Shown one piece after another: positions 45,968 through 54,624 of a DNA stretch of 64,000 bases. The translations under genes were made by a program, and so were the position numbers. The stretch comes from Candidatus Nitrosotenuis cloacae (GTDB taxonomy: Archaea > Thermoproteota > Nitrososphaeria > Nitrososphaerales > Nitrosopumilaceae). Under the pieces are notes generated by a model, which had not been told where the DNA came from, ran no database searches, and saw nothing but the letters and a program-made list of their open reading frames with translations. The DNA lies in assembly GCF_000955905.1 (NCBI RefSeq), contig NZ_CP011097.1, positions 1,328,582 to 1,392,581 on the forward strand, given 5' to 3'. Position 1 is the first letter of the stretch; every line of letters starts with the position of its first letter.

Positions 45968-46117
45968 CTACAGTTCGTTTTTGATAACGACTTTGCCATT
46001 TTCCTCAACAAAGATTACCGTTTGGCCATCTTCAATGTGCAAAAATCGCCTGGCATCCTCTGGAATTGTCACCTGATATCTTACTGTGACTTTGCTTGCA
46101 CCAAGAATTCTAGTCAT
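45968..46117 (-). CDS. AbrB/SpoVT-type DNA-binding mini-protein
   Basis: This 49-residue protein (ATG at 46117, TAG at 45968-45970) is a lone swapped-hairpin AbrB domain: MTRILGASKVTVRYQVTIP, EDARRFLHIEDGQTVIF, then a short beta end. Such domains dimerise to form a DNA-binding barrel and serve as regulators or antitoxins (MazE/VapB type). No toxin gene adjoins it. It is divergent from a cupredoxin gene, and the 14-bp palindrome at 46164-46177 lies between them. Confidence 0.78.
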   Translation of the reverse strand: MTRILGASKVTVRYQVTIPEDARRFLHIEDGQTVIFVEENGKVVIKNEL

Positions 46118-46163
46118 TCTGGCATGCTTACATGCTATTCACGCATTAATGTAGCCATGAATA

Positions 46164-50149: not shown

Positions 50150-51547
50150 TTATTCCACGTAATGGTGGTGAATCAGCTGGTCATAGAATCGGACAGACTT
50201 GATGTTGACAAACTCCAGCATTCCGTATTTTGATAGCTCCCTGCCATAGCCGCTCTGCTTTATTCCGCCAAATGGAACTCGTGGATCAGAGATTACGACA
50301 TTGTTCACTGTGACAATGCCAGACTCTATTTGCTTTGAGAGCGTTTCTGCTTTTTTTAGATTATCAGTCCAAATGCTTGCGCCAAGGCCATACTCGGAAT
50401 CATTTGCCAGCCTAATTGCTTCCTTTTCATCATCAAATATTGTGATTGGTGCAACAGGCCCAAAGGTCTCCTCATTTGAAATTCTCATGTCTGGTGTCAG
50501 TCCTGTAAGAATCGTAGGCTTGTAAAAATAGCCCTTGTTTCCAATTTGTGCTCCACCGGTTAGGATTTGGGCTCCCTTCTTTTTTGCATCTTCTACCATT
50601 GATGAGATGTTTTCCAGTGCTTCCTTGTTTACAAGCGGTCCAATGTCGGTCTCTATTACCATTGGATCGCCTACTTGCAGGCGCTCGGTATTGTGGATGA
50701 ATCTTTCAGTGAATTCTTTAGCTAGCTTTCTTGAGACAAAGAATCTCTTTGATGCGACACAACTTTGGCCGCAGTTGATGAATCTACCCTTTACTGCACC
50801 ATTTGCTGCCTTTTCCACATTAGCATCTTCTAAAACTATGAATGGATCGCTTCCGCCCAATTCCAGGACGCATTTTTTTAGCAACATTGCAGACTTTTGG
50901 CCGACCATTGCACCCACTCTTGTGCTGCCGGTAAATGTTACTGCGTTGACGTCTGCCTCAATTAGGTGATTTGCAGATTCCGATCCTCCAACCAACGTTT
51001 GGAAAACTCCATCTGGGACGCCAGACTCTTTGCAGGCCTTTTCGATTTCGATTCCGGACTGCATTGTTACACTTGATGGCTTCATGACTATGGTGTTTCC
51101 TGCAATGAGGCTTGGGGCTGCAAATCTTAGAGCTTGCCAGTATGGAAAATTCCATGGCATAATAGATCCTATGATTCCAAGTGGCTCAAATGTGACAAAG
51201 CTTTTTCGCGCATCGGTGTTTAGTATTTCATCAGACAACAGAGTTCCGCCATTATCTGCATAGAATTCGAGTGCCCAGGCACACTTTTCAACCTCGGAGA
51301 TTGCCTCCTTTAGGACCTTGCCCATTTCCTTTGTGGCAACCTCTGCAAGCATTATCTTGTTTTTGCGCAAATAATCCGTTAGATGGTACAGAGCAGCTCG
51401 TCTTGTCTCCAAGTCTCCTTTCCAGCTGGAAAATGCAATCCTTGACTTTGATACTTGGTCCCTTACTTGGTCCCTCGACATTGACTCAAAAGTAGAGATT
51501 GGCTCACCTGTCGCAGGATTGATTGTGGTGATGGTTTTGTTACTCAT
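50150..51547 (-). CDS. NAD(P)-dependent aldehyde dehydrogenase (succinate-semialdehyde dehydrogenase type)
   Basis: This 465-residue ALDH has MPWNFPYWQALRFAAPSL, cofactor-binding VMKPSSVT and FTGSTRVGAMV, catalytic Glu in LELGGSDPFIVLEDA and Cys in INCGQSCVASKRF. It most resembles GabD/Sad-type enzymes oxidising succinate semialdehyde, an intermediate of the thaumarchaeal 3-hydroxypropionate/4-hydroxybutyrate cycle, but the substrate is not fixed by sequence. It ends 56 bp downstream of the HExxH gene start and follows a DUF6659-like gene by 21 bp on the same strand. Confidence 0.9.
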   Translation of the reverse strand: MSNKTITTINPATGEPISTFESMSRDQVRDQVSKSRIAFSSWKGDLETRRAALYHLTDYLRKNKIMLAEVATKEMGKVLKEAISEVEKCAWALEFYADNGGTLLSDEILNTDARKSFVTFEPLGIIGSIMPWNFPYWQALRFAAPSLIAGNTIVMKPSSVTMQSGIEIEKACKESGVPDGVFQTLVGGSESANHLIEADVNAVTFTGSTRVGAMVGQKSAMLLKKCVLELGGSDPFIVLEDANVEKAANGAVKGRFINCGQSCVASKRFFVSRKLAKEFTERFIHNTERLQVGDPMVIETDIGPLVNKEALENISSMVEDAKKKGAQILTGGAQIGNKGYFYKPTILTGLTPDMRISNEETFGPVAPITIFDDEKEAIRLANDSEYGLGASIWTDNLKKAETLSKQIESGIVTVNNVVISDPRVPFGGIKQSGYGRELSKYGMLEFVNIKSVRFYDQLIHHHYVE

Positions 51548-51568: not shown

Positions 51569-51988
51569 CTAGACCTTGGTTTTATTGATAAAGAACAAGC
51601 TATTGGTTGCATCATCGACTATTTGCTTGTCAATGTTTTGGACTTTTTTGGCAATCTGTGCAATTCTGTCCGGACTCAGGTCCTTGTCTACTGTAAGATA
51701 GACAGTAATCATTGGAAGGTAAAGAATCAGTTGCTGCATTTTTTCTCTGACAATGTGAATGTATTGCGTCAGACCATATGCTTGGTTAAAGTGCTCTCGT
51801 CTGCTTCGTCTCAGACCGACTTGGTAGTAAAACATCATTCTGTCCTTGTCTGGCTCGTATGGCTCTGATGATAATGATGATTGGTCAATTAGGACGTGGC
51901 CTTCCAGATCAATTAATCCTAGATGAACTATTTGTGAATCTGTTTTGAATATCTCGCTTGCAAGTCGTCTTATTTCTTGAGATACCAT
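51569..51988 (-). CDS. DUF6659-like thaumarchaeal protein (roadblock-like)
   Basis: This 139-residue protein shares its plan with the one at 52099-52476: a helix, then IVHLGLIDLEGHVLIDQSSL, MMFYYQVGLRRSRREHF and a final beta/alpha part (MITVYLTVDKDLSPDRIAQI). The pattern resembles roadblock/LC7-type sensory modules and the DUF6659 family I associate with Thaumarchaeota. Its promoter has TATA (52044-52051) followed directly by the ACCATTCATTGGT element. It may be co-transcribed with the aldehyde dehydrogenase. Confidence 0.72.
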   Translation of the reverse strand: MVSQEIRRLASEIFKTDSQIVHLGLIDLEGHVLIDQSSLSSEPYEPDKDRMMFYYQVGLRRSRREHFNQAYGLTQYIHIVREKMQQLILYLPMITVYLTVDKDLSPDRIAQIAKKVQNIDKQIVDDATNSLFFINKTKV

Positions 51989-52030
51989 TTAGCACACCTC
52001 AGAATGGCTAATCAGAAATTGGTTGTATTT

Positions 52031-52051
52031 ACCATTCATTGGTATTATAAA
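52031..52051 (-). promoter_or_regulatory. Promoter with operator-like ACCATTCATTGGT element directly behind the TATA box
   Basis: On the minus strand TTTATAAT (52044-52051) is followed at once by ACCAATGAATGGT (52031-52043), a near-palindrome (ACCA...TGGT arms). The gene start is 43 bases further on. The same arrangement occurs at 52993-53012. Confidence 0.6.
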
Positions 52052-52098
52052 CCAACACGCACATAATAAAGATATTGGTAATTGTCGGCGCAAAAACG

Positions 52099-52476
52099 CT
52101 AAGAAATGATCTGGATTATCTTTTTTGGTATAACCCCAAAATCAACATCGGATTCAGAGACTACAAACAAAACATGCTTGTCGATTGGGAAGCTCATCTC
52201 AAGAACCTTGTCTCGTAGAGCCATTGCGAATTTGACCTTTCCTAGCTGTGTATCAAAGTCTTGGCGCATCTTGACTCGCAAGACCAGCTCCATGAAGAGC
52301 ATCTCATCGTCCTTTGCGCTGGAAAAGGTAGTCAGTCCGCTTTTCATGCCGCCCTCAATTAGTCTGCCGCGCTCATTGATTATTCCAGCAAAGCGGATTT
52401 TGGGATCAAGTTTGTGAATTTGATCGCAGATACTTTGATAGTTGCGAGCCTCACTCAACGATATGATGTATGACAA
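52099..52476 (-). CDS. DUF6659-like thaumarchaeal protein
   Basis: This 125-residue protein contains the family core IRFAGIINERGRLIEGGMKSG, DDEMLFMELVLRVKMRQDFD, LGKVKFAMALRDKVLEMSFP and FGVIPKKIIQII. Proteins of this pattern are numerous in Thaumarchaeota as I remember, without known function; the fold looks like a roadblock or profilin-like sensor. It is a paralogue of the gene at 51569-51988. Half-sites of the ACCA element (ATACCAACCAATACCAT read on the minus strand, 52522-52538) lie about 50 bp upstream. Confidence 0.78.
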   Translation of the reverse strand: MSYIISLSEARNYQSICDQIHKLDPKIRFAGIINERGRLIEGGMKSGLTTFSSAKDDEMLFMELVLRVKMRQDFDTQLGKVKFAMALRDKVLEMSFPIDKHVLFVVSESDVDFGVIPKKIIQIIS

Positions 52477-52556
52477 GTAGATGAAAAGACTATCGATTTT
52501 GCAGAACCAGTTTTTGTCATTGTATGGTATTGGTTGGTATGACTAGTGATTACGCA

Positions 52557-52676
52557 ATGCTTTTCAATCAGTATGATTGGATAATAGGTCTTCTTCATAT
52601 GTCATGGATATATGCAGTGAGTATTTTGTGTATTTTCCAACTTGCAGGACATCAAAACTATGGGTGTGAGAAATAA
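52557..52676 (+). CDS. Possible 39-residue membrane peptide
   Basis: ATG at 52557 opens a 39-residue frame with one hydrophobic segment (WIIGLLHMSWIYAVSILCIF) ending at TAA 52674-52676, which overlaps the ATG of the zinc-ribbon gene (TAATG). The overlap suggests translational coupling. No clear TATA was found. Confidence 0.4.
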   Translation: MLFNQYDWIIGLLHMSWIYAVSILCIFQLAGHQNYGCEK

Positions 52677-52915
52677 TGGCAATGACTTGTAATGGAATTT
52701 GTCATAGATACAAGGCTGCAAAACAGATTGGCAAGAGTCGGTATCTTTTGGGACAAAAAAGGTGCAATGGGTGTGAGATATTCATCAGGTGGGATGGCCT
52801 TTGGTGCCCATGCTGTAATTACAAGCTCAGATCAAGGCCCCGTGTGAGCCAATACAAAGCAAGATATCTGGAGCAGACAGTAAAGCGAAAAGCCCTGAAA
52901 AACATCATTGTTTAG
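52676..52915 (+). CDS. Small double-zinc-knuckle protein
   Basis: This 79-residue basic protein has MTCNGICHRYKA, QKRCNGCEIFIRWDGLWCPC and CPCCNYKLRSRPR: cysteines for one or two zinc sites, then a lysine/arginine-rich tail. It is a recurrent small family in Thaumarchaeota (from memory), often present in many copies; function unknown, nucleic-acid binding likely. A second in-frame ATG is at 52682 (MTCNG), matching the usual family start. Confidence 0.82.
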   Translation: MAMTCNGICHRYKAAKQIGKSRYLLGQKRCNGCEIFIRWDGLWCPCCNYKLRSRPRVSQYKARYLEQTVKRKALKNIIV

Positions 52916-52964
52916 ACCCAGGCACAAAAATTACGAACGAGTTTGATTGGGATTGGTGCTGGTT

Positions 52965-52977
52965 ACCATTCATTACC
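52965..52977 (+). promoter_or_regulatory. Second copy of the ACCATTCATT element upstream of the phasin-like gene
   Basis: ACCATTCATTACC matches the first ten bases of the 13-bp element found at 53000-53012, 35 bp further upstream. Together they could permit cooperative binding of one regulator. Confidence 0.45.
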
Positions 52978-52992
52978 AAATAAAACCAAATG

Positions 52993-53012
52993 TTTATATA
53001 CCATTCATTGGT
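52993..53012 (+). promoter_or_regulatory. Phasin-like gene promoter: TATA followed by ACCATTCATTGGT
   Basis: TTTATATA (52993-53000) is centred 27 bases before the ATG at 53024, giving a leaderless mRNA. ACCATTCATTGGT (53000-53012) begins on the last TATA base and fills the space up to the transcription start. A protein bound here would block TFB/polymerase entry. A related sequence in inverse orientation (ACCAATGGATGG) spans the start codon at 53020-53031. Confidence 0.62.
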
Positions 53013-53023
53013 TGTAATAACCA

Positions 53024-53512
53024 ATGGATGGAAAGAAATACCAAGACTCCAAAAGAGCCCAAGTACAATTTCCTCCACAACAAAAGGTGCAAAACAAAAT
53101 GACAACAAACGAAACAACAAAAGACGTGTTTTCAGTATACACCAAGAGCTTTGACAAGCTAAAGAGCGCATTGGACAAATCAGCAGCACAATCACTACAG
53201 TCATACACAAGCCTAAACCAAGAACTAGTAACTTCTTGGACTAACTTTGTGCACACTGCAGTAACAATCCAGCAAAGCGTTGCCAACAAAATTGGCATCA
53301 ACTATTCTTTGCCAGAACAAACAATCACTGCTGTTTCTGATGCAACCGAGGCAATCGTAAAGGCAGTCGAGACAAACAACAAAGTAGTCCAAACTGCATT
53401 TGATGCAACAATCCAAAACGTAAAGACAATCAACCAAAACGCATCAGCATTTGCCGAGCTAAACCAAAACGTCATCAACTCTTGGCTCAGTGCCTGGAAA
53501 CCACGAAACTAA
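53024..53512 (+). CDS. Phasin-like helical protein
   Basis: This 162-residue protein is nearly all amphipathic helix with few charged clusters: VYTKSFDKLKSALDKSAAQS, VTSWTNFVHTAVTIQQSV, VVQTAFDATIQNVKTINQNA. It lacks cysteine and is rich in Ala, Thr, Asn, Gln and Ser, as in phasins coating polyhydroxyalkanoate granules. The N-terminal ~25 residues are basic and separate. No PHA synthase is in the window, so the granule role is inference. A T-rich stretch (53518-53537) follows the stop as terminator. It is controlled by the promoter at 52993-53012. Confidence 0.75.
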   Translation: MDGKKYQDSKRAQVQFPPQQKVQNKMTTNETTKDVFSVYTKSFDKLKSALDKSAAQSLQSYTSLNQELVTSWTNFVHTAVTIQQSVANKIGINYSLPEQTITAVSDATEAIVKAVETNNKVVQTAFDATIQNVKTINQNASAFAELNQNVINSWLSAWKPRN

Positions 53513-53771: not shown

Positions 53772-54161
53772 CTATGGCTTGTTTTGCCTTTGCATCTTGT
53801 CTAGGGCTTCCTTTGATTTTGTTTCTGCGTCTTTGGCAAAGTTTTGCCATATGTTTTGCCAGTGATCGAAAAACGCCTTGAATGATGCGAATCCTGACTC
53901 TTTCCACATGTCTTCCCACGCTTTCTGGGACCATTGGTACGGGTTTTGCTCAAAGTTCTTTGAGAGGTTTTGCCAGATCTCGTTGTATTTTTTCATCTCA
54001 TCAAAGTTTGAGGACTTCATTGCTTGCTCAAAGCCTTGAATGTAGAGCTTGAATGCGCTTGCTGCCTGCTCTTGCATTGTTTGAAATGATTTGGTCCAAG
54101 CTTCAGTTGCCTTGGAATATGCGTCTAGGAAATCGTTGCCTTTTGGTTTGTTTGATTCCAT
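53772..54161 (-). CDS. Phasin/PhaE-like helical protein
   Basis: This 129-residue helical protein is rich in Trp, Phe, Lys and Gln: FLDAYSKATEAWTKSFQTMQ, AASAFKLYIQGFEQAMKSS, EIWQNLSKNFEQNPYQWSQ, FDHWQNIWQNFAKDAET. The spaced WxxxF and WQN patterns resemble PhaE subunits of class III PHA synthases and phasins. It faces the other phasin-like gene convergently. It may belong to the same storage-granule or membrane-surface system. Confidence 0.72.
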   Translation of the reverse strand: MESNKPKGNDFLDAYSKATEAWTKSFQTMQEQAASAFKLYIQGFEQAMKSSNFDEMKKYNEIWQNLSKNFEQNPYQWSQKAWEDMWKESGFASFKAFFDHWQNIWQNFAKDAETKSKEALDKMQRQNKP

Positions 54162-54198: not shown

Positions 54199-54624
54199 TT
54201 ATTGCTCTAGCTGCTTTAGGGCTTTGGTGCTGAGTGTTTGCTTGATGGTTCGAGGCTTGCCGTCAATGAATACATCCCCACAACAATACTTCATGGAGAA
54301 TTCTGCCATCTGGATTAGGATTGGTGCCAGTGCATGGCCTTTTTCGGTCATGGTGTACTCTACTCGTGGTGGGGTCTCGGGATAGATCTTGCGTGAAATG
54401 AGGGCATCTTTTTCCATTTCTCTAAGCCGGACTGAAAGTGTTTTTGGGTTGATTCCCTCAATAGAGTCCAGAAACTGGTTGAATCTGCTTTGCTTGAACA
54501 TTAGCATGTTACGTATGATATGCATGGTGAATTTTTTTCCCATCAGCTTTAATGTGGTATCCACTGGGCAGGCCTTGATGTCGCAGCAGCTTGGGTTTAG
54601 AAATTCTTTGTAATCTTGTTGCAA
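54199..54624 (-). CDS. HxlR-family regulator with N-terminal cysteines
   Basis: This 141-residue winged helix matches HxlR: CPVDTTLKLMGKKFTMHIIR, FNQFLDSIEGINPKTLSVRL, EKDALISRKIYPETPPRVEY and TMTEKGHALAPIL. Extra cysteines (PSCCDIKACP near residue 13-19, KYCCGD near 113) could sense redox state or metal, as in some HxlR proteins. Start is TTG (54624). It is divergent from the SEC-C gene with an 88-bp gap holding direct TTTCTAT repeats, so it probably regulates that neighbour. Confidence 0.88.
   Translation of the reverse strand: MQQDYKEFLNPSCCDIKACPVDTTLKLMGKKFTMHIIRNMLMFKQSRFNQFLDSIEGINPKTLSVRLREMEKDALISRKIYPETPPRVEYTMTEKGHALAPILIQMAEFSMKYCCGDVFIDGKPRTIKQTLSTKALKQLEQ

Follow-up and report, generated by a model that had tools for sequence, protein, structure and literature searches.

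In bacteria, AbrB regulates the transition state globally, through sites that are loose. Bacterial PhaR belongs to a protein family different from that of the archaeal proteins considered here and has different sites. The repeats of the haloarchaeal PhaR system are reportedly described by Cai et al. in 2015. The PhaR of Haloferax mediterranei is a repressor of phaRP, whose promoter contains four tandem repeats presumed to be the PhaR site (PMC9049629). A pseudo-consensus, TGGNA-N5-TGGNA, is available for AbrB (PMC11497800). Bacterial PhaR of the Cupriavidus/Ralstonia type exerts granule-responsive control over phasin and over its own gene, from separate promoters (PMC3079617; PMC9049629). In Nitrosopumilus, granules have been seen and attributed to polyhydroxyalkanoate, with six metabolic genes listed and no regulator, despite a search for the PhaR KO (PMC11082331). 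Here we analyse a stretch of 64,000 nucleotides (the window) of the genome of Candidatus Nitrosotenuis cloacae, for which it had been predicted that a 13-bp near-palindrome, ACCATTCATTGGT, placed identically behind two TATA boxes, serves a dedicated repressor of a small regulon.

Results

The two exact copies of ACCATTCATTGGT named in the original prediction, at 52031-52043 and 53000-53012, are borne out; a pattern search found two exact copies in the 1,620,156-bp genome, both in the phasin-like and DUF6659-like promoters, against a chance expectation from base composition of about 0.07. Exact copies are therefore not strewn at random positions over the genome, nor is the element absent from orthologous promoters, where it is kept. 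With up to three mismatches allowed, the window shows no excess of the 13-mer (35 seen versus 32.75 expected from shuffles) and, because it does not rise above the shuffle frequency, the degenerate 13-mer is the wrong description of the element. Its use as a search pattern at two to three mismatches was dropped, the matches being chance-like and mostly intragenic. A further copy claimed at 52965-52977 differs at three positions; what stands there is ACCA-N6-ACCA, within a direct-repeat array (52965/52975/52985). Similarly, the supposed inverse partial copy at 53020-53031 is the next unit of an alternating array (ACCA 53020, TGGA 53029, ACCA 53040). The 13-mer is thus a real yet incomplete description, only part of a larger element, and the conserved unit is the 4-bp half-site ACCA/TGGT in helical-turn arrays. 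Steps measure 10 bp between direct repeats, 9 bp from ACCA to TGGT and 11 bp from TGGT to ACCA, so that neighbouring half-sites are separated by roughly a turn of the helix, except across the phasin TATA box (15 bp) and across the TATA region of the DUF6659-like promoter (25 bp).

The phasin-like protein (162 aa, an open reading frame at 53024-53512, plus strand) is preceded by two arrays on the plus strand. The upstream array (52954-52988) has TGGT at 52954 and ACCA at 52965, 52975 and 52985, in steps of 11, 10 and 10 bp. On the minus strand, positions 52964-52978 (TGGTAATGAATGGTA) read TGGTA-ATGAA-TGGTA, which agrees with the AbrB pseudo-consensus. The downstream array (53000-53043) alternates ACCA 53000, TGGT 53009, ACCA 53020, a degenerate TGGA 53029 and ACCA 53040 in steps of 9, 11, 9 and 11 bp, contains the 13-mer at 53000-53012 and overlaps the phasin start codon. 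The TATA box TTTATATA (52993-53000, plus strand) is conserved in orthologues, which read TTTAWATA or CTTAAATA, and here the site does lie directly behind it, as had been proposed. The distance from the TATA box to the start codon at 53024 indicates that the transcript is probably leaderless. Across ten orthologous phasin promoters (a gapless alignment of nine promoters of the genus and one of another), conservation reaches 97.5% in the half-site columns and 93% in the TATA box, compared with 72% in the remaining columns (Mann-Whitney p 5e-8, uncorrected for shared ancestry). Farther along are a PhaE/phasin-like gene (53772-54161, minus strand, 129 aa), assigned from its sequence and syntenic in locus L033, for which no family scored above cut-off and in front of which no operator array was found, and a gene for an HxlR-family regulator (54199-54624, minus strand; Pfam HxlR 3.3e-24).

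At the second promoter, half-sites occur at 52020, 52031, 52040, 52051 and 52076. The array proper (52020-52054, minus strand) reads TGGT 52054, ACCA 52043, TGGT 52034 and ACCA 52023, in steps of 11, 9 and 11 bp, and contains the 13-mer at 52031-52043; its chain of four half-sites was matched by none of 2000 dinucleotide shuffles. The TATA box originally assigned here, TTTATAAT beside 52043, is not conserved, the orthologues reading TTTGCAAT, TTTGTAAT and ACGATAAT. The conserved box is ACCAATATCTTTATAT-like and lies about 20 bp upstream of it (approximately 52063-52070); together with an ACCA half-site at 52076-52079 (52063-52079, minus strand) it is kept in three orthologous promoters. With the TATA box that much further upstream, the array comes to lie over the predicted transcription start. 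An identical placement behind two TATA boxes is consequently not confirmed: the phasin array abuts its TATA box, whereas the DUF6659-like array covers the predicted start. A protein bound at either array would nevertheless be placed to block initiation.

The first gene of this operon (51569-51988, minus strand) encodes a 139-aa protein without a Pfam match, which we call DUF6659-like for its weak similarity to the neighbouring DUF6659 protein (E 4.7e-4). The second (50150-51547, minus strand), beginning 21 bp behind it, encodes an aldehyde dehydrogenase (Pfam Aldedh 1e-148) that is succinate-semialdehyde-dehydrogenase-like, the best NCBIfam models being SSADH, below their cut-off. In the cluster L045, the aldehyde dehydrogenase gene is followed, divergently, by those for phasin, the DUF6659-like protein and PhaR. 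DUF6659 or DUF6659-like genes adjoin polyhydroxyalkanoate genes repeatedly (52099-52476 of the window, minus strand; L110:3188-3547; L046:2671-3057), next to phasin here and to phaE elsewhere in the same genome, which suggests a storage-related role for the DUF6659 family, whose function is unassigned.

The composite ACCA-N5-TGGT-N7-ACCA has 20 exact matches in 17 genomes of the genus, every one of them at a phasin, DUF6659-like or phaR gene; with the same half-sites and the two spacings swapped, the same genomes give 5. The upstream triplet, W-ACCA at 10-bp steps, has 12 exact matches in these genomes, 10 of them at phasin genes. The eleventh (L228:1261-1600; G116:C117) is intact between the divergent remnants of a decayed aldehyde dehydrogenase/phasin locus, where the dehydrogenase is reduced to 65 aa by a large internal deletion and the phasin-like frame is broken at its start. 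The twelfth (L223; G076:C21:7491-7515) has no phasin, DUF6659-like or phaR gene nearby. Among 30 exact composite matches sampled from other genera, 20 coincide with a phaR start codon; the other 10 lie elsewhere and are of the order of the chance level. In a set of 200 genomes of the family, 164 of which have phasin homologues, the exact composite is found in 74 of the 163 with PhaR and in none of the 37 without (Fisher p 5e-9, uncorrected for phylogeny), a co-occurrence that is in part trivial since phaR starts themselves carry the site.

Most genera of the family have phasin directly behind phaR, a gene whose product of about 140 aa ends in an AbrB domain, and at locus L062 a phaR-phasin operon faces phaE-phaC. 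The phaR homologue of Ca. Nitrosotenuis cloacae (G000:C1:747491-747901) is beside phaC and phaE, outside the window and 634 kb from the phasin gene. Its 137-aa product has an N-terminal region in addition to the C-terminal AbrB domain, which passes the TIGR01439 AbrB model (29.2 bits versus a cut-off of 28.3, residues 96-127) and falls just below that of PF04014 (24.5 versus 24.7). Only a partial site, TGGT-N7-ACCA inside the first codons, is present at this phaR; no dense array was found in front of phaE-phaC of the same genome, so that the synthase would fall outside the regulon. In other genera, phaR starts carry the same alternating array as phasin 53000-53043, although a codon constraint (M-x-G-N) contributes to site conservation there. 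In a sample for which the motif was one ground of selection, 1.9 half-sites fall within the 70 untranslated bp ahead of phaR, versus 0.4 in shuffles. Homologues of phaR are also present in three other families of the order, with no clear array in front.

The likeness between phasin and phaR extends into the reading frame. Within the genus, the phasin start ACCAATGGATGGAAAGAAATACCA (MDGKKYQ) resembles, in the same register, the phaR start of other genera, ACCAATGAATGGTAATNNNNACCA (MNGNxxQ), and the first codons MDGKKYQD resemble a PhaR start, MSGNNNQYD. Codons 1 to about 26 (53024-53100), which are missing from most other phasins, are PhaR-start-like. It is a plausible inference that a former upstream phaR left its promoter, operator and first codons to the phasin gene, as if by deletion.

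The relation to haloarchaeal PhaR is confined to the AbrB domain (tblastn 7e-9 with Haloferax larsenii and 2e-8 with Haladaptatus). The matches of PhaR in the plasmid collection are haloarchaeal proteins, and the two examined belong to operons of the form phaR-(phasin)-phaE-phaC. Matches came from only four plasmid records, in one of which the locus is truncated by the start of the record; among their phaR promoters, that of H. larsenii has five NCCA/TGGN half-sites in 9-10 bp steps, a result reached by 5 of 2000 shuffles, and the match in Haladaptatus is weaker (73 of 2000).

Discussion

We propose, with a probability of roughly three in four, that the arrays form the operator of a PhaR-type repressor of granule genes, putatively bound at phasin, the DUF6659-like/aldehyde dehydrogenase operon and phaR. 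The dedicated repressor and small regulon of the original prediction thus find support in the conservation of the element, its near-exclusive genomic location and its co-occurrence with PhaR. The regulon as first drawn, which joins the DUF6659-like, aldehyde dehydrogenase and phasin-like genes, is well supported as far as it goes and was incomplete, phaR, outside the window, being a putative member as well. PhaR is most likely the binder; by analogy with the haloarchaeal system, its effect is most likely repression and granules are most likely the signal. PhaR would bind the ACCA/TGGT arrays cooperatively; these cover the phasin TATA box and start site, the predicted start of the DUF6659-like/aldehyde dehydrogenase transcript and the beginning of phaR. 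With few granules in the cell PhaR would sit on the arrays and, as modelled on Haloferax mediterranei, block the assembly of the pre-initiation complex or RNA polymerase; as polyhydroxyalkanoate granules form, they would draw PhaR away from the DNA and so switch on phasin, the aldehyde dehydrogenase operon and phaR.

The same operators and regulon could serve another binder, for example the HxlR-family protein, whose gene (54199-54624) is 1.2 kb from the phasin promoter, or one of the five further AbrB/MazE domains of the genome. We regard this as unlikely. The HxlR gene was rejected as a source of the binder, since the syntenic locus L033 lacks it although the operator is there in full, and in other genera phasin is co-encoded with PhaR, not with HxlR. 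The other AbrB/MazE genes were set aside as well, having no arrays at their promoters: of the six such genes, only phaR has half-sites so spaced at its start. One of the six, a stand-alone AbrB-type protein of 56 aa, is encoded in the window itself (45980-46138, minus strand), with no array in front.

PhaR or some other protein might also act as an activator, or as a tether that docks DNA to storage granules, instead of repressing. Half-sites are indeed found upstream of the TATA box, a position open to activators, and a dual role is reported for a bacterial PhaR (PMC12849132). TATA box, start site and start codon are also overlapped by half-sites, however, which is where a repressor would be expected, and haloarchaeal PhaR represses phaRP (PMC9049629); a positive or tethering function therefore seems quite improbable. 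Chance, or a segmental duplication that left a 13-mer common to two promoters without regulatory meaning, could be argued from the lack of enrichment of the 13-mer at three mismatches in the window. This we consider very remote indeed, because the two promoters have half-sites and not flanks in common, the half-site frame is kept in orthologous promoters while the spacers diverge, and exact composites recur at the same genes in many genomes.

The PhaR-type operator that we favour is closest to the haloarchaeal PhaR/phaRP system, with which it shares an AbrB-domain protein encoded beside phasin in a polyhydroxyalkanoate cluster, the C-terminal position of that domain, homology, and tandem repeats in phasin or phaR promoters. 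The haloarchaeal arrangement of phaR beside phasin and phaE-phaC recurs in L062, whereas in Ca. Nitrosotenuis cloacae phaR is next to phaC with phasin elsewhere, the two being far apart and under separate promoters, unlike in phaRP. Other differences are that the regulon here also includes the DUF6659-like/aldehyde dehydrogenase operon, that ACCA predominates among the half-sites, whose spacing alternates between 9 and 11, and that PhaR has 137 aa versus 110 aa in haloarchaea. Since arrays are not evident in three other families of the order, the likeness to the haloarchaeal repeats may go back to an ancient origin or may reflect convergence. The upstream array, TGGTA-N5-TGGTA, has the half-site and spacing of bacterial AbrB sites; unlike those, however, the sites here are confined to one small gene set and include inverted 9/11-bp arrangements. 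To bacterial PhaR the likeness is in control logic only, a granule response over phasin and its own gene.

To our knowledge, a DNA site has been defined for few of the transcription factors in ammonia-oxidising archaea. Possibly, and we offer this as a tentative proposal that we hold at somewhat below even odds, ammonia-oxidising archaea have a granule-sensing, AbrB-type PhaR that controls phasin, phaR and the aldehyde dehydrogenase operon in trans through helical-turn arrays, coupling carbon storage to central semialdehyde metabolism, the phasin promoter, operator and first codons having come from phaR in this lineage. If our reading is correct, it would provide a regulator, the DNA site that goes with it and a small regulon open to testing for polyhydroxyalkanoate storage in ammonia-oxidising archaea, the first such regulon to be defined in these organisms, and would carry the haloarchaeal PhaR system into another archaeal phylum.
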